Assembly (NCBI RefSeq): GCF_000513995.1
Contig: NZ_AZVB01000012.1
Span: 1 to 64,000 of the forward strand
Length of the DNA stretch: 64,000 nucleotides
Source: Pseudoxanthomonas sp. J35
GTDB lineage: Bacteria > Pseudomonadota > Gammaproteobacteria > Xanthomonadales > Xanthomonadaceae
Reading direction: 5' to 3'
Within the stretch, counting starts at the first letter, position 1, and each line of letters starts with the position of its first letter. The notes beneath the pieces were generated by a model that saw only the letters and a list, made by a program, of their open reading frames with translations, did not search any database and had not been told where the DNA came from. Positions 14,041 to 29,886 of the stretch are shown piece by piece. A program made the translations under genes and the position numbers.

Positions 14041-16245
14041 ATGCCGATTGAAGCGAAGCCCACCGACGCGAGGGTCGAAGCCCTGCTGGCGCGCATGACC
14101 CTCGAAGAGAAGGTCGGCCAGCTGGGCATCTTCGCCGACATGGTCCGCCCCTTCGCCCCGGACGTGAATCCGGAGGCCAACGTCCGCAACGCCGCCGAAG
14201 TGCTCGAGCAGGTGCGCGCCGGCCGCGTGGGCGCGCTGTTCAATGGCGTTGGTGCGGAACAGGGTCGCGAGATCCAGCGCGTGGCGGTGGAGGAGAGCCG
14301 GCTCGGCATCCCGGTGCTGCTGGCCGCCGACGTGATCCACGGCATGCGCACCGTGTTCCCGATCCCGCTGGGCGAGGCGGCCAGCTTCGAGCCGGAGCTG
14401 GCCGAGCGCACCGCGCGCGCCACCGCGATCGAGGCCACCGCCGCCGGCCTGCACTGGACTTTCGCCCCGGCCGTGGACATTGCCCGCGACCAGCGCTGGG
14501 GCCGCGTCGCCGAAGGCGCCGGCGAGGACGTGCACCTGGGCTGCGCGTTCGCCGCCGCGCGCGTGCGCGGCTTCCAGGGCCCGGACCTGCGCGCGCACGA
14601 TTCGCTGCTGGCCACGCCCAAGCACTTCGCCGCCTACGGCGCGGTGGCCGCGGGCATGGAATACAACTACGTGGAGATCTCGCGCGGCACGCTGCGCGAC
14701 GTGCACCTGCCGCCATTCAAGGCCGCCTTCGACGCCGGCGCGCTGACGGTAATGACCGCGTTCAACGACATCAACGGTATCCCGGCCAGCGCCAACCACG
14801 CGCTGCTGACCACGCTGCTGCGCGGCGAATGGCAGTTCCCCGGCCTGGTGGTGTCCGACTACACCGCGGACATGGAGCTGGTCGCGCACGGCTACGCCGC
14901 CGACGAGCGCGACGCCACCCGCCTGGCGTTCACCGCCGGCATGGACATGAGCATGCAGAGCGGCCACTACGCCGCACACCTGCCGGCGCTGGTCGAGTCC
15001 GGCGTGGTGCCGGTCGAGGCGGTGGACGAGGCGGTGCGGCGGGTGCTGTCGGTGAAGGCGGCGATCGGCCTGTTCGACGATCCGTACCGCTCGCTGGACC
15101 CGGCGCGCGAAGCCGACACTTCGCACCGCGAGGCGCACGAGGCGCTGGCCCGCGACGCGGCGCGGCGCTCGATCGTCATGCTGAAGAACGAAGGCGGCGT
15201 GCTGCCGCTGCGTCGCGATGCGCGGGTCGCGCTCATCGGCCCGTTCGCGCGCGACCGCGACAACATCGAAGGCTGCTGGACCCTGTTCGGCGACCGCTCG
15301 CGCTACGTCACCCTGGAGGCCGGCATCGCCGCTGCGCTCGACGGGTCATCCGGCACGCTGGAAGTGGTCGACGGCTGCGGCCTCGAAACGCCTGTCGAAG
15401 GCGGCATCGAAGCGGCGGTGGCCGCGGCACGCCGCGCCGACGTGGTCCTGCTGGCGGTCGGCGAGCCACAGCGTTACAGCGGCGAGGCGCAGTCGCGTAC
15501 CCGCATCGTCATCCCGCCGGCGCAGCAGGCGCTGGCCGAGGCGGTGGCCGCGACCGGCACGCCGGTGGTGGTGCTGCTGCGCAACGGCCGCGCGCTGGCG
15601 CTGGAAGGCGCGGTGCGCGACGCGCAGGCGATCCTGGTGACCTGGTTCCTCGGCAGCCAGACCGGCCACGCGGTGGCCGACGTGCTGTTCGGCGAATATA
15701 GCCCGTCGGGCCGGCTGCCGGTGAGCTTCCCGCACGATTCCGGCCAGCAGCCGTACTTCTACAGCCATCCGCGCACCGGCCGCCCGGAGACGCCGGAGAT
15801 GTCCGAGTTCAAGGCGCGCTGGCGCGAGTACCCGAACACCGCGCTGTATCCGTTCGGGCACGGCCTGGGCTACGGCAGGATCGAGTACGGCCAAACCCGC
15901 GTCGATACCGCGACCCTGGTATGGGATGGCACCCTGACCGTGCGCTGCATGGTGCGCAACGGCGGCGAGCGCGCGGCGGAGGAAGTGGTGCAGCTGTACG
16001 TGCACGACCGCGTCGGCAGCCGGGTGCGCCCGGTGCGCGAGTTGAAGGGCTTCCGCAAGATCCTGCTGCAGCCGGGCGAAACCCGGGACGTGGAGTTCAC
16101 CCTGTCGCGCAGCGAACTCGCATTTACCCGGGCGGACGGCACGCATGGCGCCGAACCCGGATCGTTTGATGTGTGGATCGCGCCGTCTTCAGTCGCCGGA
16201 ACCCCCGCACGCTTCGAACTGCTCGCGCCGGCGGACGGACGCTGA
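14041..16245 (+). CDS. bglX: Glycoside hydrolase family 3 beta-glucosidase
   Basis: The 734-residue enzyme has the GH3 domains in order: a TIM-barrel domain (about residues 10-330), an alpha/beta sandwich (about 370-600) and a fibronectin III-like domain (about 640-720). The catalytic nucleophile is Asp273 in VVSDY. Substrate-binding motifs TPKHFAAYGA and RDQRWGRVAEGAGEDVHL are intact. The family hydrolyses terminal beta-glucosides (BglX-type) and, in some members, xylosides. Unlike E. coli BglX there is no obvious signal peptide from the ATG at 14041, so it may be cytoplasmic. An alternative start upstream is not seen. A GCTAGAAT -10 element lies 30 bp upstream. Confidence 0.9.
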   Translation: MPIEAKPTDARVEALLARMTLEEKVGQLGIFADMVRPFAPDVNPEANVRNAAEVLEQVRAGRVGALFNGVGAEQGREIQRVAVEESRLGIPVLLAADVIHGMRTVFPIPLGEAASFEPELAERTARATAIEATAAGLHWTFAPAVDIARDQRWGRVAEGAGEDVHLGCAFAAARVRGFQGPDLRAHDSLLATPKHFAAYGAVAAGMEYNYVEISRGTLRDVHLPPFKAAFDAGALTVMTAFNDINGIPASANHALLTTLLRGEWQFPGLVVSDYTADMELVAHGYAADERDATRLAFTAGMDMSMQSGHYAAHLPALVESGVVPVEAVDEAVRRVLSVKAAIGLFDDPYRSLDPAREADTSHREAHEALARDAARRSIVMLKNEGGVLPLRRDARVALIGPFARDRDNIEGCWTLFGDRSRYVTLEAGIAAALDGSSGTLEVVDGCGLETPVEGGIEAAVAAARRADVVLLAVGEPQRYSGEAQSRTRIVIPPAQQALAEAVAATGTPVVVLLRNGRALALEGAVRDAQAILVTWFLGSQTGHAVADVLFGEYSPSGRLPVSFPHDSGQQPYFYSHPRTGRPETPEMSEFKARWREYPNTALYPFGHGLGYGRIEYGQTRVDTATLVWDGTLTVRCMVRNGGERAAEEVVQLYVHDRVGSRVRPVRELKGFRKILLQPGETRDVEFTLSRSELAFTRADGTHGAEPGSFDVWIAPSSVAGTPARFELLAPADGR

Positions 16246-17295: not shown

Positions 17296-18555
17296 TCACG
17301 AAGCCGGTGGCGTGTCGGCGACGTCACCGCTCTGGCGCGCGACGATCGCGGTGGCGGTGAGGTCGCCGGTGACATTGCCGGTGGTGGCGAACACGTCGGG
17401 GATGGTGTCCACCGCCAGCAGCAGGCCCAGCGGTTCCACCGGCAGGCCCATCGACTGGGTCACCGGCATCACCGTGGCCATGAAGCTCACCTGCCCGGGC
17501 AGGCCCACCGAACCGAGGCTGATCACCACCGCCAGCGCCGAGCCGGCGGCCAGCTGCAGCGCGCCAAGCTCGATGCCGTAGGCCCAGGCCACGAACGCGG
17601 CGGCGACGATGTACTGGATCGGCGAGGTGATCCGGAACAGGGTCACCGCCATCGGCAGTACCAGCGCCGCCACCGAGGGCGACAGCCCCAGGCGCTCGCG
17701 CGCGCTCTCCAGCATCGCCGGCAGCGAGGCCAGCGAGGACTGGGTGCTGGCGGCCACCACCTGCGCCGGCAGGATCGCGCTGGCGAAGGCCGCCGGCGAG
17801 CGCCGCGCGAACGCCGCGACCAGGCCGTAGCAGATCACGATCGCGCCGATGTACATCGCGCACTGCAGGACGATGTAGCCGGCCAGCGCGCCGACCACGC
17901 CCAAGCCGGCCTGCGCGCACACCGCCAGCATCAGCGAGAACACGCCCAGCGGCGCGGCCAGCAGCACCCAGTGCACGATCACGATCATGGTGTCGGCGAT
18001 GCCATGGCACAGGCCGACCACCTGCACGCGCCGGTCCACCGGCACGCGGGTGAGGGCGAAGCCGAAGAACAGGGCGAACACCACCAGCGGCAGCATCGCG
18101 CCCTGCGCGGCGGCCATGATCGCGTTGGAGGGGATGATGTTGCCGATCCACTGCGCCAGCGACGGCGCCTCGCCGGCCGCCATCGCCGCCGGCGAGGCCT
18201 GCAGGGTCGCCGCCAGCTGCGGGCTGCGCGGCACCAGCGACAGCAGCGCCGGCGCCACCAGCGCCGCGTAGGCGGCGAACAGCGACAGCAGCACCACGAA
18301 GGTGATGAGCGCGCGCCGGGCCACGCGCCCGGAGGCGGCGGCGTCGGCGGCGGTGGCCACGCCCAGGATCACCAGCGCCAGCACCAGCGGCACCACGGTC
18401 ATCTGCAGCGCGCTCAGCCACAGCTTGCCGACCGGCTGGGCGATGCTGGCGGCGGTCGCCGCCGCGCCGGGATGCCAGTGGGCCAGGGCCAAGCCGACCA
18501 CGGCGCCGGCCAGCAGGGCGATCAGGACCCGCGCGGTCGCGCCCGGCCACCTCAT
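17296..18555 (-). CDS. Dicarboxylate/amino acid:cation symporter (DAACS family)
   Basis: The 419-residue membrane protein belongs to the GltP/DctA family, which couples import of glutamate, aspartate or C4-dicarboxylates to H+ or Na+. Eight membrane helices and two re-entrant hairpins are expected. Visible signatures include the serine-rich first hairpin (ASTQSSLASLPAML), the helix-7 region (ALVLPMAVTLFRITSP) and the second hairpin (SVGLPGQVSFMATVMPVTQS). The helix-8 motif DTIPDVFATTGNVTGDLTATAI carries the substrate-binding Asp/Thr/Asn positions. Its ATG overlaps the stop of the upstream YkuD-type gene (ATGA), so translation is coupled. As the last gene of a murein-peptide operon, it may import glutamate or a related acid released by the pathway. 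Confidence 0.88.
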   Translation of the reverse strand: MRWPGATARVLIALLAGAVVGLALAHWHPGAAATAASIAQPVGKLWLSALQMTVVPLVLALVILGVATAADAAASGRVARRALITFVVLLSLFAAYAALVAPALLSLVPRSPQLAATLQASPAAMAAGEAPSLAQWIGNIIPSNAIMAAAQGAMLPLVVFALFFGFALTRVPVDRRVQVVGLCHGIADTMIVIVHWVLLAAPLGVFSLMLAVCAQAGLGVVGALAGYIVLQCAMYIGAIVICYGLVAAFARRSPAAFASAILPAQVVAASTQSSLASLPAMLESARERLGLSPSVAALVLPMAVTLFRITSPIQYIVAAAFVAWAYGIELGALQLAAGSALAVVISLGSVGLPGQVSFMATVMPVTQSMGLPVEPLGLLLAVDTIPDVFATTGNVTGDLTATAIVARQSGDVADTPPAS

Positions 18556-19361
18556 CGGACGGCCTCCTGCGCGGCCGGCAGCTGCCAGTCCGCCGCCAGG
18601 CGCGCGTGCTCGGCCGCCGGCAGCAGCACGAAGCGCGGCTGCGCGGCCGGATCCAGCCAGGCCAGCAACGCCTCCATGTCCGCGTCGGCCATTGCGGTGC
18701 AGCCGGCGGTGGCTTCGCCGGGCTTGCGCCACAGGTGGGCGAAGATGCAGCTGCCGCCCTGCGGCACGTTGCCGGGGTTGTGGCCGATCACCAGGCCCAG
18801 GCGGTAACGCGGGTCGCCCTTGCCGTGCAGGTCCAGGCGCATCGGTTCGCTGGAACCGGCCACGGCGGCCTCGCCGACCTCGCGCGCGTCGACGATGAGG
18901 TTGTAGTGCGGCGAGTCTGGCACGTCCATGCACCAGTGGCTGGCCTGCATCGGCAGGTAAGGCACGGCGGTGCCGGCCTGGGCGGCGTAACCGAAGGCCG
19001 GGCCGATCGCGAACGCCCCGGCCGGGCTGCGCCCGTCGCCCTCGCGCTTGCGCGGGCCTGCGCCCAGGTCGGCGTCGGCGTGCAGGCCGGTGCCCCAGGC
19101 GCTGCCGTTGCGGCCGATCGCCACGGCGAAACCGCCGGCCTCGCGCCAGCCATCGGCGTCGCCTTCGCGCTGGTAGTAGCGCAGCGTGCCCTGGCTGGCG
19201 TCCCAGCCGGCGGTGGTCACCAGCACCAGCTGGCGCGCGCCCTGCAGCGGACTGCCGGCCAGCGCCGCCGCGCTCGCGCACAGGGCCAGCAGCAGGGTGC
19301 AGAGGCGGGCGCCGAACCGGCCGGCGCAGGTGGAACGGGAGCGGTCGGCAGAGTAGGCCAT
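18552..19361 (-). CDS. Secreted L,D-transpeptidase-like (YkuD-fold) protein
   Basis: The 269-residue protein has an N-terminal signal peptide (about residues 1-36, LCTLLLALCASAAALAGS). The C-terminal half carries a YkuD-type active site: IFAHLWRK with the histidine, then TAGCTAM with the likely catalytic cysteine. The usual SHGCxRx motif is replaced by AGCTAM, as in the YafK/DpaA-like branch rather than in classical cross-linking enzymes. The substrate is probably murein or a murein-linked peptide; transpeptidase versus hydrolase activity cannot be decided. It lies 13 bp after the regulator gene and overlaps the symporter by 4 bp, so it belongs to the same operon. Confidence 0.8.
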   Translation of the reverse strand: MAYSADRSRSTCAGRFGARLCTLLLALCASAAALAGSPLQGARQLVLVTTAGWDASQGTLRYYQREGDADGWREAGGFAVAIGRNGSAWGTGLHADADLGAGPRKREGDGRSPAGAFAIGPAFGYAAQAGTAVPYLPMQASHWCMDVPDSPHYNLIVDAREVGEAAVAGSSEPMRLDLHGKGDPRYRLGLVIGHNPGNVPQGGSCIFAHLWRKPGEATAGCTAMADADMEALLAWLDPAAQPRFVLLPAAEHARLAADWQLPAAQEAVR

Positions 19362-19374
19362 GCGGTCGGGTCCG

Positions 19375-20226
19375 TCAGGTATCCAGCAGGTGCCGGATGC
19401 GTTCGAGGTTGGTGCCGAGCTGGCGGTGCCGCTCCGGGTTGGCGTGGCACAGCAGCACGAACAGGAAGTCGAGCAGGTACTGCAGCGAGGAACGGTACAG
19501 CAGCGCCTCCACGTGCGGCAGCGGGTCGTGCGCGGACACCACCAGCGAGGCGTCGGCGTGGGCGCGCAGCGGGTTGGCGGTGTGGCGGGTGATCGAGACC
19601 ACCTTGCCTTCGCAGGCCTGGAACTGGCGGCTGATCTGCGACAGCTGCGGCAGCTGGCCGAACTCGGAGAACAGCAGCATCACGTCGCCGGGCCGCGCCG
19701 CCGACAGGTTGGCCATCATCAGGATCGGGTCGGCGTGGTGCACGGTCAGCACGCCCAGCAGCGACAGGCGCATGGAGAACTCGCGGGCGAACAGGCCGTC
19801 GTCGCCGAGGCCGAACACGAAGACCTTGTCGGCGCCGTCGAGCAGGCCGACGATCTCCTCGATCCGCGAGCGCGGGTTGAGCAGCCGCGTCTCCTCCTCG
19901 GCGGCGACCTTGCTGCGGCGCAGGCCTTCCTCGATGCGGGCGAAGTCGTCGCGCTCGCCGGCGACCGGGGCGGCCTGGGCCGGCGCGTCGGCGCCGTTGC
20001 GCGCCACCGCCTGGCCGATGCTGTACTTCAGGTCGGGGTAGCCGCGGAAGCCGAACTTCTGGCTGAACTTGACCACCGACGACTGGCTCACCCCCAGCGC
20101 GCTGGCCAGTTGCTGCGAGGAGTAGTCGCGCAGCAGGTGGGCGTTGTCGAGGATGAAGTCGGCGATGCGGCGTTCGATCGCCGACATGTGGTCGCGTTCG
20201 GAGCGGATCTTCACCAGTGGCGGCAT
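19375..20226 (-). CDS. RpiR/MurR-family regulator with atypical SIS domain
   Basis: The 283-residue protein has an N-terminal HTH_6 DNA-binding domain (IADFILDNAHLLRDYSSQQL, then LGVSQSSVVKFSQKFGFRGY) and a C-terminal SIS domain (about residues 130-260). Family members usually sense phosphosugars, as MurR senses MurNAc-6-phosphate. Here the usual GxGxS turn reads GLGDDG and the usual SxSG motif reads SEFG, so key phosphosugar-contacting positions differ. The gene sits inside the murein-peptide operon and probably controls it. The ATG at 20226 was chosen because MPPLVKIRSERD looks like a family N-terminus; the ATG at 20259 would add 11 residues and is also possible. Confidence 0.85.
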   Translation of the reverse strand: MPPLVKIRSERDHMSAIERRIADFILDNAHLLRDYSSQQLASALGVSQSSVVKFSQKFGFRGYPDLKYSIGQAVARNGADAPAQAAPVAGERDDFARIEEGLRRSKVAAEEETRLLNPRSRIEEIVGLLDGADKVFVFGLGDDGLFAREFSMRLSLLGVLTVHHADPILMMANLSAARPGDVMLLFSEFGQLPQLSQISRQFQACEGKVVSITRHTANPLRAHADASLVVSAHDPLPHVEALLYRSSLQYLLDFLFVLLCHANPERHRQLGTNLERIRHLLDT

Positions 20227-20270
20227 GGGCGCGATCTTGGTCCGGGGGACGGCGGCCATGCAACCGGCGC

Positions 20271-21368
20271 TCAGCGCGCCAGCAGCTCCAGCCCGCGGAT
20301 CTCGCTGATCCCCAGGCCGGGCGCGTCGGTGATGCTGATCTCCGACTCGTTGAAGATCACCCCGCCCTCGACCGGGTTGAACTGGCCCAGCGACGGACCG
20401 TCCAGGTCGACCTTGCTGATCGCGTCGGCCTTGGCCACGGCCACGTGCACGGCCGCGGCGACCGAGACCGCCGATTCGATCATGCAGCCGATCATGCACT
20501 GCACCCCGTAGATCGAGGCGATGTCGGCGATGCGGATGGCGTTGGAGATGCCGCCGGTCTTCATCAGCTTGATGTTGATGATGTCCGCGGCGCGGCGCTG
20601 GATCAGGTCGAACACCTGGCTCGGCCCGAACACGCTCTCGTCGGCCATCACCGGGGTGTGGACCCGGTCGGTGACGTACTTCAGGCCTTCGATGTCGGCG
20701 GCCTTGACCGGCTGCTCCAGCAGTTCCAGCAGCACGCCGGCGTTCTCCAGCGTGTGCATGGCGTAGACCGCCTGCTTGGCGGTCCAGCCCTGGTTGGCGT
20801 CCAGGCGCAGCAGGGCGCGGCCCTCGACCGCGGCGTGGATCGCCTTGACCCGCTCGATGTCCAGGCCGATGTCCTTGCCGACCTTGATCTTCAGCGAATC
20901 GAAGCCGCGCTCCACCGCGGCGATCGAGTCGGCCACCATCTTGTCGATGTGGTCCACCGAGATGGTGATGTCGGTGGTGATCACCGGGTCGCCGCCGCCG
21001 AGCATCTTGTACAGCGGCGCGTCGTACAGCTGGCCCCACAGGTCGTAGATGGCGATCTCCACCGCCGCCTTGGCACTGGTGTTGCGCTCCAGCGAACCCT
21101 GGATCAGGGCGCAGATGCGGTTGAGGTTGGCGATCTCCTGGCCGATCAGGCGCGGCTTGATGAAGCGGTCGATCGCCTCGATGATCGAACCGTGGGTATC
21201 GCCGGTGATCACCGCGGTGGCCGGCGCCTCGCCGTAGCCGGTGTGGCCGGTGTCGGTGCGGACCAGGACGACGATGTCCTCGACCGTGTCGACGGTGCGC
21301 AGCGCGGTCTTGAACGGCGTCTTCAAGGGCACGCGCAGCATGCCCAGTTCGATGTCGGTGATCTTCAT
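20271..21368 (-). CDS. Dipeptide epimerase (L-Ala-D/L-Glu epimerase type)
   Basis: The 365-residue enzyme is an enolase-superfamily member of the muconate-lactonising subgroup. The acid/base lysines are in SLKIKVG (KxK) and NIKLMKTGG. Metal ligands are the aspartate in RLDANQGW, the glutamate in ELLEQPV and the aspartate in MADESVFG. A terminal DLDGP gives the DxD motif that contacts the dipeptide amino group in L-Ala-D/L-Glu epimerases (YcjG/YkfB). The reaction converts L-Ala-D-Glu from murein into L-Ala-L-Glu, which ordinary peptidases can cleave. Its ATG overlaps the stop of the NlpC/P60 gene (ATGA), so translation is coupled. Confidence 0.9.
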   Translation of the reverse strand: MKITDIELGMLRVPLKTPFKTALRTVDTVEDIVVLVRTDTGHTGYGEAPATAVITGDTHGSIIEAIDRFIKPRLIGQEIANLNRICALIQGSLERNTSAKAAVEIAIYDLWGQLYDAPLYKMLGGGDPVITTDITISVDHIDKMVADSIAAVERGFDSLKIKVGKDIGLDIERVKAIHAAVEGRALLRLDANQGWTAKQAVYAMHTLENAGVLLELLEQPVKAADIEGLKYVTDRVHTPVMADESVFGPSQVFDLIQRRAADIINIKLMKTGGISNAIRIADIASIYGVQCMIGCMIESAVSVAAAVHVAVAKADAISKVDLDGPSLGQFNPVEGGVIFNESEISITDAPGLGISEIRGLELLAR

Positions 21369-22825
21369 TGGGAGGCTTGGGTTTCCGGATTCACGGGCCG
21401 CATCCGCTGGATGCTGGTCATGCGGTCCACGTAGGTTTCTTCGTCGCCGAACAGCATCGGCTCCAGCGGGGTCACCGACACGCCGTTGAGGCCAGCGCGC
21501 ACGCGCTGGCCGCCGGCGCCGAGCCAGCTGCCGCCGTTGGTGTCGTGGATCATGTAGGCGGTGCCGTCCTGGTGGCCGATGGCCACCATCACGTGGCCGG
21601 GGATGTAGACCAGGTCGCCGGCCTGCAGGCCGCGCACGGCTTCCATGCGCTTGTCGCGGCTGTCGCCGCGGTCGAAGCCGATGCGGTCCAGCGCCGGGCT
21701 CACCGCCTGGTCGCGGGTGTTGCGCGGGACCAGCACGCCGAAGCTGCGGTAGATCTCCGAGACGAAGCCGCTGCAGTCGCGGGCATCGTAGGAATGGCCC
21801 CAGCCATAGCGCTCGCCGAGGAACTTGAAGGCCTGGCGAATGAGGTTGGCGCGGGTCAGCGGCAGATAGTCGTCCGCGACATCGGCCGAACGCGGCACCA
21901 GCGCCGGCACGAACTCCAGCCGGCCGTTGGCATCCCGCACCGGCAGGTCGACCACGTGCGAGGCGTAGGGGTGCTGGCCGTTGACGCGCTGGTCGGCGGG
22001 CCAGTCGCTGCGCAGCGGCAGGCGCAGACCCATGTCCAGCTGCAGCGCCGAGACGCGCGGCTCCTCCGGGGTAAAGGTGGTGCGCACGGTGGCGCCGGTC
22101 ACCACGATGTACGGGGCGCGTTGCGCGTAGCCCAGCACCGCGTCGCGCTCGCCGATGGCCACGTGGCGGGCCTCGATCCACGCGCTGTAGCGCTCGCTGG
22201 CCACGAACAGCCAATGCCCGTCGCGGCTGCGGTGCAGCACGGCCACCGCGTCGCCGGGGAACAGCGCCGATTCCTGGAAGCGGTCGATGTCGGTGTCGCC
22301 GGGCGAACTGAACACCCGCAGCGAGGTCGGGAACGCGCGCAGGGCGGCGCGGTGCACGACCAGGCCGAAGCGCAGCGGCTGGCTGGCCGGGATCGCGTCC
22401 AGCGCGACCGCGCGCTGCAGCGCGTCGAGTTCGCGCTTCGGCACGGCCTTGCCGTGCACGTCGTACAAGGTGCGGGTCGGGGACGCCGACAGCGCCTCGA
22501 CCCGCTCGCGCACCAGTTCCCGCGGCAACGGGTCTGGCAGAGCGGCGATATCGTGGATCGAAGGATCCATGGCGCGCATGCGCGCGTTCTGCGCCTCGAT
22601 CTGGGCACGGTCCAGGACCAGGGCATCCGGATCGGGCAGCTGCGCGATCCAGTGCTCCGGCGTCAGCTCGGCCAAGGTCACGCCGATGACGGCGGTGGGC
22701 GTGGCCGGCGCGGGCGCCGGTTCGCGGGCGGCCAGGGTGGCCGGCAGCAGCGCCGCCAGCAGCAGCCAGGCGCGCGGACGGTGCGCACGGCGACGGGCCG
22801 CGGGCGCGTGACTCAGGGCGTTCAT
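21365..22825 (-). CDS. Secreted NlpC/P60 murein-peptide endopeptidase with SH3-like domains
   Basis: The 486-residue protein has a signal peptide (WLLLAALLPATLAAREP), a proline-rich linker, SH3-like modules (about residues 150-290) and a C-terminal NlpC/P60 domain (about 325-470). Catalytic Cys351 is in DARDCSGFVSEIYR; the histidine is in GHVMVAIGH, with a third polar residue in MIHDTNGG. The layout is that of YkfC-type gamma-D-glutamyl-diaminopimelate endopeptidases, which release L-Ala-D-Glu from murein stem peptides. The ATG at 22825 follows GGAGGA and starts the leader; the in-frame ATG at 22891 lies in the promoter region. It is the first gene of a five-gene leftward operon. Confidence 0.9.
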   Translation of the reverse strand: MNALSHAPAARRRAHRPRAWLLLAALLPATLAAREPAPAPATPTAVIGVTLAELTPEHWIAQLPDPDALVLDRAQIEAQNARMRAMDPSIHDIAALPDPLPRELVRERVEALSASPTRTLYDVHGKAVPKRELDALQRAVALDAIPASQPLRFGLVVHRAALRAFPTSLRVFSSPGDTDIDRFQESALFPGDAVAVLHRSRDGHWLFVASERYSAWIEARHVAIGERDAVLGYAQRAPYIVVTGATVRTTFTPEEPRVSALQLDMGLRLPLRSDWPADQRVNGQHPYASHVVDLPVRDANGRLEFVPALVPRSADVADDYLPLTRANLIRQAFKFLGERYGWGHSYDARDCSGFVSEIYRSFGVLVPRNTRDQAVSPALDRIGFDRGDSRDKRMEAVRGLQAGDLVYIPGHVMVAIGHQDGTAYMIHDTNGGSWLGAGGQRVRAGLNGVSVTPLEPMLFGDEETYVDRMTSIQRMRPVNPETQASQ

Positions 22826-22964
22826 GTCGCCGGATCCTCCCCTTGAGGCGGGTTGCGGAAGAATAGTTATTCCGAATATCGGCGCCGTCAAGAATAAATT
22901 ATTGACCCGCTACCGGGGTCGTGTTACATCACGCCCTGCCACCGCACAAAGGGGAAGTGTCGCC
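22826..22964. promoter_or_regulatory. Divergent promoter region with two AT-rich palindromes
   Basis: This 139-bp gap separates the two divergent murein-peptide operons. A palindrome GAATAGTTATTC lies at 22861-22872 and a second, AATAAATTATT, at 22893-22903. Such AT-rich stretches are rare in this genome. A rightward -35 candidate TTGACC at 22902-22907 overlaps the second palindrome, with a weak -10 (TACATC) after 17 bases. A leftward -35 candidate, TTGACG on the minus strand near 22890, would place its -10 on the first palindrome. The layout suggests repression of both operons by one regulator, most simply the RpiR-type protein encoded at 19375-20226. Confidence 0.65.
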
Positions 22965-24530
22965 GTGGAACACCGCCGCCGCCAGCGCCTTGCATCACTG
23001 GCCGTGCGCAGGTCCCGCCGGGGCCTGGCGCCGCTGGGTGCGGCCGCGTTGCTGCTGGCCATCACGGTGTCTTCCGCCGGCGCGCGCGTGCCGGCGCCCG
23101 CCCCGGCGGAGCTGGTCGCGACGGTGGACCGTGGCGACTTCCGCGGGGCCGAGGCGAGGATCGCCGCCGCGCTGGCCGATCCGGCGCTGCCGGTGACGCA
23201 GCGCGAGGCGCTGGAGTACCAGCGCGAACGCATGCGCCGCATCCGCCTGGACTTCAGCCTGGACCGAGCCGCGGCCATGGCGCAGCTGCGCAAGTCGATC
23301 CCGGACCTGCGCGAGGACGAGTTCGACGCCTGGGACCGCGCCGGCCTGATCGAGCGCATGGACATCGACGGGGAGCCGCGCTACTTCAAGCGCGCCATCT
23401 CCAACCTGTTCCGGCTCAGCCCGGAAGCGGCCGCGCGCCGCGCGCCGCCGGTGCGGCCTTTCAGCGAAGGTCCCTTCGAAACCCTTCATCCGCACCATGC
23501 CGAAGTGCTCGCCGCCGCCCGCGACGGCGGCGCCACCAGCGTGGCGCCGCGGCGCCTGCGGGTGACCCAGTCGCTGGTCGTGGACGCCGACGCGGTGCCG
23601 GCCGGCGAGGTGGTCAGCGCCTGGATCCCGTTCCCGCGCGCGATCCCCGGCCAGCAGGAGGGCATCCGCCTGCTCGGCACCGTGCCCGAGGGCGGGCAGC
23701 TGGCGCCCGAATCGGCGCTGCAGCGCACCGTGCATATGCAGCGCACCGCCCAGGCCGGCACCCCGGTCGAGTTCTCGGTGAGCTACGAGCTGACCGTGTT
23801 CGCCCGCCACTTCGACATCGACCCGGCGCGCGTGCAGCCGACGCCCGCCGACGCCGGGCTGGCGCCGTTCCTGGCCGAGGAAGCGCCGCACATCGTGTTC
23901 ACCCCGCAGCTGCGCGAGTTCTCGCGCCAGGTGGTGGGTGGGGAGACCAATCCGTACCTGGTCGCGCGCAAGCTGTTCGAGGCCGTGGACCGGATCCCGT
24001 GGGCCGGGGCGCGCGAGTACTCGACGATCTCCAACATCAGCGACTACGCGCTGCACGCCGGCCACGCCGACTGCGGCCAGCAGACCCTGCTGCTGATCGC
24101 GCTGCTGCGGCTCAACGGCATCCCCGCGCGCTGGCAGTCCGGCTGGGTCTATTCCGACGACGATGTCGGCTACGACAACATGCACGACTGGGGCTGGCTG
24201 TACCTGGCCCCGTACGGCTGGGTCCCGATGGACGTGACCACCGGCCAGCTGGCCAGCGACGATCCGGCGCTGCGCTGGTTCTACCTCGGTGGGCTGGACG
24301 CGTACCGCATCGCGTTCAACGACGCCATTTCCCGGGATTTCGTTCCGGCCAAGCGCCACTTCCGCTCCGAGACCGTGGATTCACAACGCGGCGAGGCGGA
24401 ATGGCGCGGTGGGAACCTCTATTTCGACCAATGGGACTACCGGTTCGAATGGCAGCTGCTGCCACTAGGCAATGACGCCACCAGCGCGGGCGACAACACC
24501 AACACCACTGTGGGAGAGACACGGGGATGA
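22965..24530 (+). CDS. Secreted transglutaminase-like peptidase-family protein
   Basis: The 521-residue protein has an N-terminal signal peptide (LGAAALLLAITVSSAGARV) after a basic stretch. The C-terminal third is a transglutaminase core: Cys370 in HADCGQQTLLLIALL, the histidine in NMHDWGWLYLAP, and the aspartate in VPMDVTTG. The N-terminal 200 residues form a helical domain followed by a beta domain. It is the first gene of the rightward operon and its stop overlaps the receptor start (ATGA). In this context it probably acts on murein peptides in the periplasm, but the activity is inferred. The GTG at 22965 has a GGGGA ribosome site; earlier in-frame codons overlap the promoter. Confidence 0.85.
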   Translation: MEHRRRQRLASLAVRRSRRGLAPLGAAALLLAITVSSAGARVPAPAPAELVATVDRGDFRGAEARIAAALADPALPVTQREALEYQRERMRRIRLDFSLDRAAAMAQLRKSIPDLREDEFDAWDRAGLIERMDIDGEPRYFKRAISNLFRLSPEAAARRAPPVRPFSEGPFETLHPHHAEVLAAARDGGATSVAPRRLRVTQSLVVDADAVPAGEVVSAWIPFPRAIPGQQEGIRLLGTVPEGGQLAPESALQRTVHMQRTAQAGTPVEFSVSYELTVFARHFDIDPARVQPTPADAGLAPFLAEEAPHIVFTPQLREFSRQVVGGETNPYLVARKLFEAVDRIPWAGAREYSTISNISDYALHAGHADCGQQTLLLIALLRLNGIPARWQSGWVYSDDDVGYDNMHDWGWLYLAPYGWVPMDVTTGQLASDDPALRWFYLGGLDAYRIAFNDAISRDFVPAKRHFRSETVDSQRGEAEWRGGNLYFDQWDYRFEWQLLPLGNDATSAGDNTNTTVGETRG

Positions 24531-27500
24531 AGAGCAGGACTTTCAGGAAGGCGGCGCTCTATGTGGCGCTGGGGGCGTGCCTCGGCGCGATGACGCCGAT
24601 GGTAGCGATGGCGCAGAGTGCCACCGGTGCGGTCGCCGGCCGCGCCACGGCGGGCGACCAGATCGTGGTCACCAACGTCGCGACGGGCGCCTCGCGCACC
24701 GTCACGGTCGGCAAGGACGGCGTCTACCGCCTGACCCAGCTGCCGGTCGGCGACTACAAGCTGCAGCTGATGCGTGACGGCCAGCCGGTCGGCGAGGGCG
24801 CCACGGTCAACGTCGGCCTGGGCGGCACCACCTCGGTGAACCTCGGTTCCGAGGGCAACCTGGTCAACCTCGACACCGTCGAGGTGGTCGGTTCGCGCGT
24901 GATCAACCGCGTCGACGTGTTCTCGACCGAGTCGGTCACCACGGTCAACCGCGAGGAACTGGCGCGGATGCCGGTCGACCAGACCTTCAGCTCGGTCGCG
25001 CTGCTGGCGCCGGGCGTGGTCGGCGGCAACTCCTCGCTCGGCGGCCTGTCCTTCGGCGGCTCGTCGATCGCCGAGAACTCGGTGTTCATCAACGGCCTCA
25101 ACGTCACCGACTTCTACCGCCGGCAGAGCTTCTCCACCGCGCCGTTCGCGTTCTTCCAGGAGTTCCAGGTCAAGACCGGTGGCTACTCGGTCGAGTTCGG
25201 CCGCAGCACCGGCGGCGTGATCAACGCGGTGACCCGCCGTGGCACCAACGAGCTGCAGGGCGGCGTGGAGGTGACCTTCGAGCCGGCCGCGTGGCGTTCC
25301 CACACCGAGGACCGCTACTACGACGATGGCAGCATCAACGTGCTCGGCAGCCACGACCGCCAGAGCTGGATGAAGACCAACGTCTGGGCGTCCGGCCCGC
25401 TGGTCAAGGACAAGCTCTTCCTGTTCGCGATGTACGAGTATCGCGACAACGACTCGCGCGCCACCAACGCCCTCGGCACCCGCATGAGCTACGCCGACTC
25501 CGGCAACGGCTTCTGGGGCACCAAGCTCGACTGGCAGATCACCGACGACCACCTGCTGGAGCTGCTGGCCTTCTCCGACGAGGGCGAGAGCGTCACCGAT
25601 ACCTACGAGTACGACTTCGACAGCCGCACGCGCGGCGACTACGTCGGTTCGACCACCAGCGAGAGCGGCGGCAAGAACGGCTCGATCACCTACACCGGCC
25701 ACTTCGGCGAGAACTTCACCGCCAAGGCCATGTACGGCGTGAACCGCAGCCAGGGCCTGTCCTACTCGCCGGCCGACCTGCTCTGCTCGCAGGTGATCAT
25801 CAACACCACCTACAACGCGGTGTACACCGCGATGGGCCGTCCGCCGGTGTCCTGCCACCCGAGCACCTCCAGCTCGGTGGTCGACCACCACGACGAGCGC
25901 AAGGTCGGCCGCCTGGACTTCGAGTGGGCGCTGGGCGACCACCTGCTGCGCTTCGGCTTCGACCGCGAGGAGATGAACACCGAGCGCTTCACCAAGTACC
26001 CGGGCGACGGCTTCCGCTACACGGTGACCGCGCAGAACCCCGGCGACCTGCTGTCCAACGGCGGCGTCGTGCCGGCCGGCGTGAACGCGGTGATCACCGG
26101 CCGCCGGCGCTTCGACGGCGGCGAGTTCGACACCACCGCCAACGCGTTCTACATCGAGGACGTGTGGAGCATCACCCCGACCCTGCTGCTGAACCTCGGC
26201 ATCCGCGTGGACACGTTCGAGAACATGGACGCCACCGGCAAGACCTTCATCAAGCAGGACAACCTGGTCGCGCCGCGCTTCGGCTTCTCCTGGGACATGA
26301 AGGGTGACGGCACCACCAAGCTGTACGGCAACGTCGGCCGCTACTACCTGCCGATCCCGAGCATCATCAACTACAACTTCGCCGGCGGCCTGACCGACGA
26401 GTACACCTACTGGGCGCTGGACGGCTGGAGCCCGGCCACCAACCCGGTCACCGGCGCCTCGTACATGGCCCCGGTGTTCGGCCAGCAGATCGGCCCGGTG
26501 GACACCTCGATGAACATCTCGGCGGCCGATACCCGCCAGAGCGTGGACCGCGACCTGGATGCGGTGTACCAGGACGAGGCGATCCTCGGCTTCCAGCAGA
26601 TGATCAACCAGGCCTGGTCGTGGGGCGTCAACGCCACCTACCGCCGCATGACCAACGACATCGGCGACATCCGCATCAACGCGCTGTGCGGCGTGCGCCA
26701 CGGCAACCTGTGGCCGATCGCCAATCCGGGCGACAAGCTGACCCTGTGGGGCACCAAGGCCCAGGGCTGCGCCGAGGACGGCTGGGTGACGATCGACACC
26801 TCGAAGGAGGGCTACATCACCTCAGGCAGCAACCGGATCATCGGCTACAAGGATCCGAAGCGCACCTACAAGGCGGTCGAGTTCCAGATCGACCGCGCCT
26901 GGGACGACAAGTGGACCTTCAACGCGTCCTACCTGTGGTCTAAGTCGGAGGGCAACTTCGAAGGCCCGGTCAACTCCGACACCAACTACGGCGACACCGG
27001 CATGACCCAGCACTGGGACCATCCGGCCAACAACGAGCGCTACGGCGTCCTGTTCAACGACCACGAGCACCAGATCAAGCTGCGCGGCAGCTACAAGCTG
27101 AACGACATGTGGACCTTCGGCAGCACGCTGACGGCGATGTCCGGCGGCCCGATCACCGCCTTCGGCGTGACCTGGCCGGACGAGAACCTGGCGGTCGCCA
27201 GCTACACCTCCACCGGCAGCGGCGGCGGTACCGGCTGGCTGTGCGTGCAGAACTGCTCGGGCTCGTACGACCAGCGCGTGTACGAGTGGTCGCCGCGCGG
27301 CGCGTTCGGCAACATGCCGTGGACCTACAACCTGGGCGCCAGCGTGACCTGGACCCTGCCGGTCCCGGGCATCGACCTGAAGGCGCGCCTGTCGGTCTAC
27401 AACCTGCTCAACGAGCAGGAAGTGATCAACGTCAGCGCCCGCTACGAGGCGCAGCCGGGCCAGCGCCGCGATACCTTCGGCACCGGCACCCGCTGGCAGT

Positions 27501-27541
27501 CGCCGCGCTACACCCAGCTGGTCCTGACCTGGAACTTCTGA
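24527..27541 (+). CDS. TonB-dependent receptor, Oar-like with CarboxypepD-reg domain
   Basis: The 1004-residue outer-membrane protein has a signal peptide ending MVAMAQS, then a carboxypeptidase-regulatory-like beta-sandwich (about residues 28-95, with GKDGVYRLTQLPVGDYKLQL). The segment LDTVEVVGSR resembles a TonB box. A plug follows (about 110-230, with SVALLAPGV, NVTDFYRRQ and YSVEFGRSTGGVINAVTRRG), then a 22-strand barrel ending in the terminal phenylalanine of TQLVLTWNF. The fold suits uptake of large or peptide ligands. Its operon partners suggest murein peptides as substrate; that is an inference. The ATG overlaps the preceding stop by 4 bp. A perfect hairpin follows the gene. Confidence 0.9.
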   Translation: MKSRTFRKAALYVALGACLGAMTPMVAMAQSATGAVAGRATAGDQIVVTNVATGASRTVTVGKDGVYRLTQLPVGDYKLQLMRDGQPVGEGATVNVGLGGTTSVNLGSEGNLVNLDTVEVVGSRVINRVDVFSTESVTTVNREELARMPVDQTFSSVALLAPGVVGGNSSLGGLSFGGSSIAENSVFINGLNVTDFYRRQSFSTAPFAFFQEFQVKTGGYSVEFGRSTGGVINAVTRRGTNELQGGVEVTFEPAAWRSHTEDRYYDDGSINVLGSHDRQSWMKTNVWASGPLVKDKLFLFAMYEYRDNDSRATNALGTRMSYADSGNGFWGTKLDWQITDDHLLELLAFSDEGESVTDTYEYDFDSRTRGDYVGSTTSESGGKNGSITYTGHFGENFTAKAMYGVNRSQGLSYSPADLLCSQVIINTTYNAVYTAMGRPPVSCHPSTSSSVVDHHDERKVGRLDFEWALGDHLLRFGFDREEMNTERFTKYPGDGFRYTVTAQNPGDLLSNGGVVPAGVNAVITGRRRFDGGEFDTTANAFYIEDVWSITPTLLLNLGIRVDTFENMDATGKTFIKQDNLVAPRFGFSWDMKGDGTTKLYGNVGRYYLPIPSIINYNFAGGLTDEYTYWALDGWSPATNPVTGASYMAPVFGQQIGPVDTSMNISAADTRQSVDRDLDAVYQDEAILGFQQMINQAWSWGVNATYRRMTNDIGDIRINALCGVRHGNLWPIANPGDKLTLWGTKAQGCAEDGWVTIDTSKEGYITSGSNRIIGYKDPKRTYKAVEFQIDRAWDDKWTFNASYLWSKSEGNFEGPVNSDTNYGDTGMTQHWDHPANNERYGVLFNDHEHQIKLRGSYKLNDMWTFGSTLTAMSGGPITAFGVTWPDENLAVASYTSTGSGGGTGWLCVQNCSGSYDQRVYEWSPRGAFGNMPWTYNLGASVTWTLPVPGIDLKARLSVYNLLNEQEVINVSARYEAQPGQRRDTFGTGTRWQSPRYTQLVLTWNF

Positions 27542-27553
27542 TCGGCTGAGATG

Positions 27554-27585
27554 GGAGGCGCGTCCCCGGCGGGGGACGCGCCTCC
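27554..27585 (+). other. Perfect 14-bp intergenic hairpin between receptor and hydrolase genes
   Basis: GGAGGCGCGTCCCC (27554-27567) and GGGGACGCGCCTCC (27572-27585) pair around the loop GGCG. No T-run follows, so it is more likely an RNA-stabilising or attenuating element within the operon than a full terminator. Confidence 0.75.
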
Positions 27586-27602
27586 GGATTCGGGGAAGAA
27601 CA

Positions 27603-29153
27603 ATGCGCAGGATCCTCCCGTTCGCGGCCGCACTGGCGGCCGCTTTTCTTTTCCAGCCGGCCCTGGCCGCGCAGGCCGGCGACGAGGCCGCGGCGATCGC
27701 GCGCGCGGTCGATGACGCGGTGGCCCGCTACCAGCTGCCCGGCATCGCCGTCGGCGTGATCCGCGATGGCCAGGTGGTGGCCGTGGAAACCCGCGGCGAG
27801 CTGGCCGCCGGTGGCGGCGAGCCGGTCACGCCGGACACGCTGTTCAAGATCGCCTCCAACACCAAGGCCATGACCGGCGCGGTGCTGGCACGCCTGGTCG
27901 ACCAGGGCAAGCTGCGCTGGGACGACCCGGTGACGAAGCACCTGCCGCAGTTCCGCATGCACGACCCGTGGGTCACGGCGAACATGCAGGTCCGCGACCT
28001 GCTGGTCCACAACAGCGGCCTGGGCCTGGGTGCCGGCGACCTGATGCTGTGGCCGGAACCGAACGACTTCACCCGCGCCGACATCATCGCCGGCCTCGAG
28101 CACCTCAAGCCGGTGACCAGCTTCCGTTCCGGCTACGCCTACGACAACCTGCTGTACGTGGTCGCGGGCGAAGTCGCCGCCGCCGCCGGCGGTGCGCCCT
28201 ACGAGGAACTGGTGCGTCGCGAGATCTTCGCGCCGCTGCGCATGGATGGCTGCCGCGTCGGCAGCTGGAAGCTCAGCGAGGCCGGGCCGGTCGCGCTGCC
28301 GCACCGCCGCGTCGATGGTCGCAACGTGGCCATCCACGAGGACGAAGAGCTGGTGCCGGACATCACCTCGATGGCCGCCGGCGGCATCCGCTGCGGCGTC
28401 GATGACATGCTCAAGTGGATGCAGGCCTGGCTGGATCCGGCCAACCCGTGGCTGTCGCCGGCGCAGCGCCGCGCGGTGTGGACCGGGCACATGCCGATGC
28501 CGGTCAGCGAGCGCATGCGTGCCTGGGACAACACGCACTTCTCCGCCTACGGCTTCGGCTGGCGCCTGTCCGACGTGAACGGCCACTGGAAGGTGGCGCA
28601 CACCGGCACGCTGACCGGCATGTATTCCTCGCTGATCCTGCTGCCGGACCTGCGCGCGGGGGTCATCATCCTGATCAACGGGCCGGGCGAGCACGCCCGC
28701 ACCGCGCTGGGGCAGGTGCTGATGGAGCGCTTCACCGCGCCGCAGGCCGGCCACGACCTGGCCCACTTCGCCGGCCTGCTGGAGCAGGAGCGCGCGCAGC
28801 GGAAGGCGGCCGAACCGCTGCCGGATACCTCATCGCGGCGCCCGGCCACCGTGGCCGAGGCCCGCGACCTGCTCGGCGTGTGGCGCGATCCGTGGTTCGG
28901 CGAAGTGGCGATCTGCCGGCGCGCCGACGGCATCGGCTTCGCCTCGGCGCGTTCGCCGGTGATGCGCGGACGGCTGATGCGCGTGGGCGAACGCTGGCTG
29001 GTGGAGTGGGACGACGTCGAGGTCGACGCCGAGGCCTGGCTGCATCCGCCCGCCACCGGCGCTACCCTCACCCTGTCCCACGTCGATCCCGAAGCGGACT
29101 TCAGCTACGACTATGCCGACCTCGCCTTCACCCGCCAGCGCGACTGTCCCTGA
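27603..29153 (+). CDS. Secreted serine hydrolase, class C beta-lactamase/DD-peptidase family
   Basis: The 516-residue protein has a signal peptide (LPFAAALAAAFLFQPALAAQ). The catalytic SxxK is S85-N-T-K88 in KIASNTKAMTG; the second motif is YAYDN and the third is AHTGTLTG. These are the S12 family signatures (D-aminopeptidases, DD-carboxypeptidases, esterases). A C-terminal beta domain (about residues 410-516) matches the lipocalin-like tail seen in many family members. The gene follows the receptor by 61 bp and overlaps the dipeptidase gene by 41 bp. In this context a role in trimming D-amino-acid-containing murein peptides is likely, but the substrate is not shown by the sequence. Confidence 0.88.
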   Translation: MRRILPFAAALAAAFLFQPALAAQAGDEAAAIARAVDDAVARYQLPGIAVGVIRDGQVVAVETRGELAAGGGEPVTPDTLFKIASNTKAMTGAVLARLVDQGKLRWDDPVTKHLPQFRMHDPWVTANMQVRDLLVHNSGLGLGAGDLMLWPEPNDFTRADIIAGLEHLKPVTSFRSGYAYDNLLYVVAGEVAAAAGGAPYEELVRREIFAPLRMDGCRVGSWKLSEAGPVALPHRRVDGRNVAIHEDEELVPDITSMAAGGIRCGVDDMLKWMQAWLDPANPWLSPAQRRAVWTGHMPMPVSERMRAWDNTHFSAYGFGWRLSDVNGHWKVAHTGTLTGMYSSLILLPDLRAGVIILINGPGEHARTALGQVLMERFTAPQAGHDLAHFAGLLEQERAQRKAAEPLPDTSSRRPATVAEARDLLGVWRDPWFGEVAICRRADGIGFASARSPVMRGRLMRVGERWLVEWDDVEVDAEAWLHPPATGATLTLSHVDPEADFSYDYADLAFTRQRDCP

Positions 29154-29886
29154 GCGCGGCCGCGCTTCCATCGCACCGCGCCGCCGACCCGCCCTGGCAT
29201 GCGCCGGCGTGGCCCTGGCCGCCGGCGCGGCCTTCGCGGCCGACCCGCCGGCAGTGTCGCCGGCGGCCGATGCCGCCGCCGCCGGCATGGTCGACGTCGC
29301 CACGCTGGCGCCGGGCATCGCAGTGGAGATGCGCTACTTCGGCAGCAACAACTTCACCGGCGCGCCGGTGCCCGGTTACGAGGCCGACCGCTGCTACCTG
29401 CTGCGCCCGGCCGCCGAGGCATTGGCGCGGGTGCAGGCCGCGCTGGAGTCCGGGGGCCTGCGCCTGCGCGTGCACGACTGCTACCGGCCGGTCCGCTCGG
29501 TGAAGCACTTCATGCGCTGGGTCGCCGCGCCCGACGACCCGGCGCTGAAGGCACGCTGGTACCCGAACGTGGACAAGGCGGCGCTGACGTCCGGCTACAT
29601 CGCCGAGACCTCCGGCCACAGCCGCGGCGCCACCGTCGACCTGACCATGGAGCGCTGCGACGCCGATGGCTGCACGCCGCTGGAGATGGGCACGCCGTAC
29701 GACTTCTTCGATCCGTCCGCGCACACCGACGCCCCCGGCACCGCGCCGGAGGCGCGCGCCAACCGCGACCGCCTGCGCGCGGCGATGGAAGCCGAAGGCC
29801 TGGCCAACTATCCGGGCGAGTGGTGGCACTTCACCCTCAAGCCGGAGCCCGACCCGGGCACGGCCTACGACTTCCCGGTGCGCTGA
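29113..29886 (+). CDS. ddpX: D-alanyl-D-alanine dipeptidase (VanX/DdpX, peptidase M15D)
   Basis: The 257-residue zinc peptidase hydrolyses D-Ala-D-Ala. It has an N-terminal signal peptide (ALACAGVALAAGAAFAADP), so it acts outside the cytoplasm. The family signatures are intact: RVHDCYRP with the transition-state arginine, SGHSRGATVDLT with the first zinc ligands (H and D), and GEWWHF with the catalytic glutamate and third ligand. The start at 29113 lies inside the preceding hydrolase gene, a 41-bp overlap in a different frame that suggests coupled expression. It is not near vanR/vanS/vanH/vanA genes, so vancomycin resistance is unlikely. Use of D-Ala-D-Ala as nutrient or in murein turnover fits the operon. 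Confidence 0.9.
   Translation: MPTSPSPASATVPERGRASIAPRRRPALACAGVALAAGAAFAADPPAVSPAADAAAAGMVDVATLAPGIAVEMRYFGSNNFTGAPVPGYEADRCYLLRPAAEALARVQAALESGGLRLRVHDCYRPVRSVKHFMRWVAAPDDPALKARWYPNVDKAALTSGYIAETSGHSRGATVDLTMERCDADGCTPLEMGTPYDFFDPSAHTDAPGTAPEARANRDRLRAAMEAEGLANYPGEWWHFTLKPEPDPGTAYDFPVR

Follow-up and report, generated by a model that had tools for sequence, protein, structure and literature searches.

The window analysed here, a stretch of 64,000 nucleotides from Pseudoxanthomonas sp. J35, contains between positions 17296 and 29886 nine uninterrupted reading frames, each with a start and a stop and free of internal stops, which form two divergent operons separated by exactly 139 bp (22826-22964). 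The leftward operon (minus strand) encodes, outward from this gap, an exported SH3b-NlpC/P60 endopeptidase (P0005, 21365-22825; PF12913 and PF00877), a YkfB-like dipeptide epimerase (P0004, 20271-21368), an RpiR/MurR-family regulator (P0003, 19375-20226), an exported YkuD-fold protein (P0002, 18552-19361) and a DAACS/SDF-family symporter (P0001, 17296-18555; PF00375 at 9e-80). The rightward operon (plus strand) begins with a GTG start and encodes an exported transglutaminase-like hydrolase (P0006, 22965-24530; PF01841), an Oar-like TonB-dependent receptor (P0007, 24527-27541), an exported S12 serine hydrolase (P0008, 27603-29153; PF00144) and an exported VanX-like M15 D,D-dipeptidase (P0009, 29113-29886; PF01427). 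An earlier note on this DNA had described the nine genes, the two divergent operons and the shared 139-bp region, and both the frames and, by domain search, the domains it had assigned to the nine proteins were recovered as described. Its remark that most starts and stops overlap holds approximately: of the seven same-strand junctions, four are overlapping (4 bp in three cases, 41 bp at S12/VanX), while the other three are gapped by 13, 44 and 61 bp. The N-termini, read by eye, carry signal-peptide-like leaders in the YkuD-fold, NlpC/P60, transglutaminase-like, S12 and VanX-like proteins, and no such leader is seen in the epimerase or the RpiR regulator.

This arrangement is shared by a wide range of bacteria from soil, water and plants. 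It occurs in Pseudoxanthomonas, Stenotrophomonas, Xanthomonas spp., Lysobacter, Luteimonas and Vulcaniibacterium, as well as in Rhodanobacter, Dyella, Luteibacter, Frateuria and Tahibacter, and in a sample of sixty 20-kb neighbourhoods and 80 named loci the order and strands are identical to those of J35. The earlier note had suggested a look for the same gene order in other Xanthomonadaceae, where it was indeed found on the same strands; 128 non-redundant loci around the epimerase gene were compared. The NlpC/P60 gene adjoins that of the epimerase in 124 of them, RpiR is present in 111 with the same order and strands, and the transglutaminase-like and Oar-type receptor genes are found in 101 each. 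The counts for S12 (87) and the VanX-like gene (65) are underestimates, since each locus was followed for no more than 20 kb, or to the end of its contig, and the later genes of the rightward operon can be missed. Such a grouping of genes exceeds chance. Neither a receptor nor an epimerase orthologue was found in 369 genomes of the class outside the family, a sample that covers one other family of the order; unlike this sample, the named loci from Rhodanobacteraceae do carry the locus.

The region between the operons contains a 20-bp palindrome, GTCAAGAATAAATTATTGAC (22887-22906), of which, with as many as three mismatches allowed, neither the window nor the genome has a second copy. Its core, GAATAAATTATTGAC, is kept against a variable flanking sequence in all 79 divergent promoter regions, and it occurs in 120 of the 122 loci with RpiR; a strict 20-bp pattern had missed 52 loci with RpiR, which the conserved 15-bp core resolved. 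Among 17 loci without RpiR, the operator is absent from 12, whereas four of the other five are truncated at contig ends and the genome of the fifth encodes RpiR in another cluster of the same contig. As the operator tracks the RpiR gene, control of both operons by RpiR is likely, and this co-occurrence makes the palindrome its probable binding site. Putative promoter elements read from the sequence overlap the operator, namely a -35 TTGACC and -10 TACATC for the rightward operon (22902-22930, plus strand) and a -35 TTGACG and -10 TAACTA for the leftward operon (22864-22891, minus strand); a consensus promoter scan reported neither of these candidate pairs. The regulator combines HTH_6 and SIS domains, as does MurR, and scores below the NCBIfam MurR equivalog cut-off (86 against 408 bits).

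The closest relative of the epimerase in the PDB is B. subtilis YkfB (1jpm/1tkk, 1.7e-100), and the YkfB-type residues Arg24, Thr135, Lys160/Lys162, the metal ligands, Lys267 and Asp321/Asp323 are retained, the last pair being the DxD motif by which the earlier note had placed the protein among the enolase-family dipeptide epimerases. Across 60 sequences the active-site residues are invariant or nearly so. Arg24, which we take to contact the Glu side of the dipeptide, is present in all relatives, whereas the aligned epimerases of other specificity, 3jva and 2p88, have Gly at this position. Hence the active site does not align with a subgroup specific for other dipeptides, an outcome that would have told against the earlier interpretation, but with the L-Ala-D/L-Glu enzyme YkfB, Arg24 included. 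The scores remain below the NCBIfam dipeptide-epimerase equivalog cut-offs for the Thermotoga type (253 against 500 bits) and the E. coli type (108 against 343 bits), there being no B. subtilis-type equivalog among the models listed. The residue pattern makes a strong case that P0004 would act as an L-Ala-D/L-Glu epimerase of the YkfB type.

In the adjacent NlpC/P60 protein, the catalytic triad Cys351-His411-His427 is invariant in 135 proteins, and so are the S1-site residues (Tyr340, Trp342, Asp350 and Ser352), whose roles in the binding of gamma-D-Glu have been described (PMC2954226), and the SH3b tyrosine that corresponds to YkfC Tyr213. Asp256 of YkfC (compare PMC2954226) is replaced by Asn369 in all 135 relatives, and the best PDB match is 3m1u. 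Because of this replacement we regard P0005 as YkfC-like in action and nearer to 3m1u, outside the YkfC subfamily. Judged by family and site, its triad and S1 site correspond to those for gamma-D-Glu-diamino acid substrates.

The YkuD-fold protein matches PF03734 just above the cut-off and has invariant His209 and Cys221. Foldseek alone gave no significant match for it, and PDB sequence searches with the YkuD-fold, transglutaminase-like and receptor proteins returned nothing usable. Its structural model (pLDDT 72) aligns with Pgp2 (Z 11.4, rmsd 3.2, 132 aligned), YkuD (Z 11.2, rmsd 2.9, 112 aligned), Csd6, Bd1075 and DpaA, at Z scores of 8.4-11.4 in which entries less than 1 apart count as tied, so that the fold alone gives no choice between carboxypeptidase and transpeptidase. 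Some of these five proteins are presumably L,D-carboxypeptidases, and the fold together with the conserved Cys and His suggests P0002 as a candidate L,D-carboxypeptidase. In the transglutaminase-like protein Cys370-His407-Asp423 is invariant and the fold resembles that of 3isr, a putative cysteine protease; no close characterised relative was found by PDB sequence and fold comparison. The S12 protein has Ser85xxLys88, YDN and HTG motifs that are invariant in 91 sequences. P0009 matches VanX (1r44) at 8e-43 and conserves Arg125, His169, Asp176, Glu236 and His239, the active-site Arg, His, Asp, Glu and His of M15, with a score below the NCBIfam VanX equivalog cut-off (180 against 320 bits).

Relatives contain additional wall-peptide genes at the same place in the locus. 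A stand-alone diaminopimelate decarboxylase, above the equivalog cut-off, is inserted in 34 of the 128 loci, an AmpD-like amidase in 24 (with a lipobox in the copies from L109 and L138), an M19 dipeptidase in 22 and a DUF819 membrane protein in 35. We rejected the idea that the decarboxylase is a plain biosynthetic lysA, as it is an extra copy in 12 of 12 tested genomes, where a bifunctional aspartokinase-decarboxylase of about 890 aa persists elsewhere. The added genes make sense for murein stem peptides (L-Ala-D-Glu-DAP-D-Ala), and another explanation for them is not easily found. AmpG and Mpl are encoded at other places in the J35 genome, which implies that the locus comes on top of ordinary recycling. 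In a search of the same genome for X-Tfe domains there was no match, and all controls were equally silent, so that the negative outcome is no evidence of absence.

Because the NlpC/P60 enzyme is exported and the epimerase cytoplasmic, L-Ala-D-Glu must enter the cytoplasm whole. The proposal of the earlier note that released amino acids are taken up through the symporter finds no support in that form, since the dipeptide itself has to cross and the DAACS carrier lacks the arginine of acidic-amino-acid carriers. In 31 of 31 sequences the GltPh-type Arg397 is replaced by Ala, Ser or Cys and the NMDGT motif by F-R-[ILM]-x-S with an invariant Arg in TM7, and none of the 31 shows the GltP-type combination of TM8 Arg and TM7 NMDGT. 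By these residues the carrier belongs to a divergent subgroup apart from acidic-amino-acid carriers, and import of glutamate was dropped as unsupported, the pocket being altered. At the same position an APC amino-acid permease is found instead in 40 of the 128 loci and the DAACS carrier in 65, while no locus has both (p about 4e-17 in a Fisher test, which ignores relatedness). In 102 of 109 loci YkuD is found together with one or the other, which makes the YkuD product, e.g. D-Ala, a candidate cargo. A search for Opp/Dpp/MppA-type binding proteins found no hit to SBP_bac_5 anywhere in the genome although its controls matched; the genome does possess POT peptide carriers, one of them within the window. 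To describe a complete-looking system, as the earlier note had done, goes too far, no inner-membrane dipeptide carrier having been identified.

The linkage of the receptor to the epimerase was assessed in 149 genomes of the family, a receptor match of at least 44% identity being taken as an orthologue. P0007 consists of a CarboxypepD_reg domain, a plug (PF07715) and an outer-membrane barrel (OMP_b-brl_4, PF25183). Orthologues are present in 70 genomes, every one of which also possesses the epimerase. In 67 of these, 2.9-7.4 kb separate the two genes; two of the three exceptions have them on different contigs of fragmented assemblies and in one genome they are apparently truly apart. None of 79 paralogues (about 42% identity or less) lies near an epimerase, so that the orthologues, far from standing mostly beside unrelated nutrient genes as the earlier note had considered possible, are the ones found with this enzyme. 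A distant match of 40% (G327) was set aside, its neighbours being mnmE and yidC. This association makes it likely that the receptor takes up wall peptides in a TonB-dependent manner. Another TonB receptor type (TBDR2) is found at the same place in 11 of the 128 loci. Small loci of the order transporter-YkuD-epimerase-NlpC-VanX occur without a receptor in a congener (L113) and in Xanthomonas-like genomes (L106-L108), which indicates that the core reactions can run without it; nor is the need for a TonB receptor self-evident, because free tripeptides are small enough for porins.

The explanation we favour, with a probability of roughly 0.7, is a regulated locus for the utilisation of murein peptides that includes a TonB receptor of its own; the scavenging role put forward in the earlier note is well supported, the epimerase and the receptor linkage both having passed their tests. 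Wall fragments, i.e. stem peptides or peptide-bearing muropeptides from lysed or turned-over cells, would bind the Oar-like receptor and be pulled through the outer membrane by TonB energy. In the periplasm, D-Ala/cross-link or isopeptide bonds may be the targets of the S12 and transglutaminase-like enzymes, the YkuD-fold protein may trim as an L,D-carboxypeptidase, the VanX-like enzyme, by family and active site, would act on D-Ala-D-Ala, and the NlpC/P60 enzyme would cut the gamma-D-Glu-diaminopimelate bond. Candidate routes across the inner membrane are the DAACS carrier or its substitute, the APC permease, DUF819 in relatives, or housekeeping POT carriers. In the cytoplasm the epimerase, whose assignment is strong, would convert L-Ala-D-Glu to L-Ala-L-Glu, which ordinary dipeptidases could split, and RpiR would switch both operons from the one palindromic operator between the divergent promoters.

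It is possible, if unlikely, that the locus serves the turnover of the cell's own wall and that the receptor merely retrieves leaked self-fragments, as self-derived stem peptides would suit all enzymes equally well and the small loci without a TonB receptor exist. However, AmpG and Mpl are already available elsewhere, the epimerase and the extra diaminopimelate decarboxylase point to the breakdown of stem peptides rather than their re-use, and a local regulator with an outer-membrane importer suits an external nutrient better. We find it still harder to believe that the receptor takes up general peptides or D-amino-acid natural products, which the enzymes would dismantle or detoxify: Oar-like paralogues (35-41% identity) are numerous in the family, none with a solved relative found by sequence in the PDB, and a variety of D-peptides are substrates of S12 and M15 enzymes, but the active sites of the epimerase and the NlpC/P60 protein are of the L-Ala-D-Glu and gamma-D-Glu-diamino acid types, and the added amidase and diaminopimelate decarboxylase are murein-specific. 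A function in secretion or envelope assembly, as reportedly proposed for Oar of Myxococcus and compatible with the domain make-up of CarboxypepD_reg, plug and OMP_b-brl_4 barrel, is very improbable, given that the receptor gene overlaps a hydrolase gene translationally and that a TBDR2-type receptor substitutes at the same place in relatives, which suggests a shared import role.

Beyond murein-peptide utilisation by this locus, we lean slightly towards the wider view that in this clade the Oar-like proteins serve as dedicated TonB importers of murein peptides or muropeptides, within a single-operator regulon widespread in Lysobacterales in which two receptor types have been exchanged between close relatives. 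Murein recycling in Gram-negative bacteria is known mainly as the retrieval of self-made periplasmic fragments; if our reading is true, there are bacteria that actively gather wall peptides from their surroundings, those of neighbours they lyse included. In the open-licence literature searched we found no TonB receptor in connection with a dipeptide epimerase, a D-Ala-D-Ala dipeptidase or exogenous peptidoglycan, and no outer-membrane receptor for murein peptides or muropeptides, so that this receptor family would serve a nutrient class absent among the TonB cargoes described there. The locus also supplies candidate inner-membrane carriers for wall-derived products and offers, in Lysobacter and Stenotrophomonas for instance, a tractable regulon of two operons under one operator and one regulator.

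Catabolism of the ykf type and TonB nutrient loci are both known, while their combination has no precedent in the literature searched. As in Bacillus ykfABCD, epimerase and NlpC/P60 genes are adjacent and co-directional (124 of 128 loci here) and the same reactions are expected (PMC2954226); unlike it, the J35 locus has an exported endopeptidase, a TonB receptor and a YkuD-fold protein where the L,D-carboxypeptidase YkfA would be expected, and the genome has no Opp/Dpp-type peptide-ABC binding protein. With the TonB carbohydrate utilisation (CUT) loci of Xanthomonas it shares the combination of receptor, degradative enzymes, inner-membrane carrier and regulator (PMC1790865), but its enzymes would target wall peptides instead of sugars and its receptor belongs to the Oar-like subclass; the words murein, peptidoglycan and epimerase never occur in the main text of that paper. 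The N-acetylglucosamine TonB clusters of Caulobacter likewise unite a receptor, inner-membrane uptake and catabolism of a wall-derived compound, whereas their cargo is an amino sugar and the portion of the source consulted names no peptide enzymes (PMC13046382). P0009 shares the M15 fold and active-site residues of VanX, DdpX and PcgL and differs from them in its signal-peptide-like leader, its sub-cut-off VanX score and the absence of vancomycin resistance genes alongside. Finally, P0002 resembles ElsL and other YkuD-fold L,D-carboxypeptidases in fold, Cys/His and the expected step from tetrapeptide to tripeptide (PMC8649774), but ElsL lacks a leader and is cytoplasmic, whereas a signal-peptide-like leader is present on P0002 and a lipobox-like motif on several of its relatives.

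Two clean types of the Oar-like TonB-dependent receptor, with about 48% identity between them, occur at the same position of the locus (24527-27541 in the window; also L152 and L153, neighbourhoods of the epimerase gene in relatives), and the 69 receptors are divided between them 37 to 32. Differing types are found even in S. maltophilia strains whose epimerases are 98-99.5% identical. On the epimerase tree the receptor type changes 13 times, compared with a mean of 23 and a minimum of 18 upon shuffling. Between PC315 and SJTL3, 90% DNA identity extends up to a point within the receptor gene, from which the sequences diverge onward through the S12 hydrolase and VanX genes. Selection by phages or bacteriocins could have given rise to the two types; alternatively, they could serve different wall fragments.

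A DUF819 membrane protein gene is inserted beside the NlpC and epimerase genes in 35 of the 128 non-redundant loci (e.g. L088, 10907-12061; L104, 6293-7444), and this protein is a candidate for the transport of L-Ala-D-Glu or diaminopimelate. The window itself also encodes a POT-family peptide carrier (51405-53144), and a glycoside hydrolase family 3 gene (14041-16245) lies close to the locus.

In the near-identical loci L106 (3973-5328) and L107 (3759-5114), a candidate antibacterial type IV secretion effector with XVIPCD, peptidoglycan-binding and VgrG3-like domains is encoded between the amidase and VanX genes, hinting at a link of killing with harvesting. A further XVIPCD-like region is located close to the murein-peptide locus in L077/L142.

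L088 and L089 belong to a single genome, in which the locus is split into two separate parts of the same contig with two epimerase genes; the operator is retained even in the part without RpiR. The epimerase gene of L117 (G081:C7) is represented by two neighbouring matches that lie in different reading frames; sequencing error or decay may account for this, and the rest of the locus is intact.
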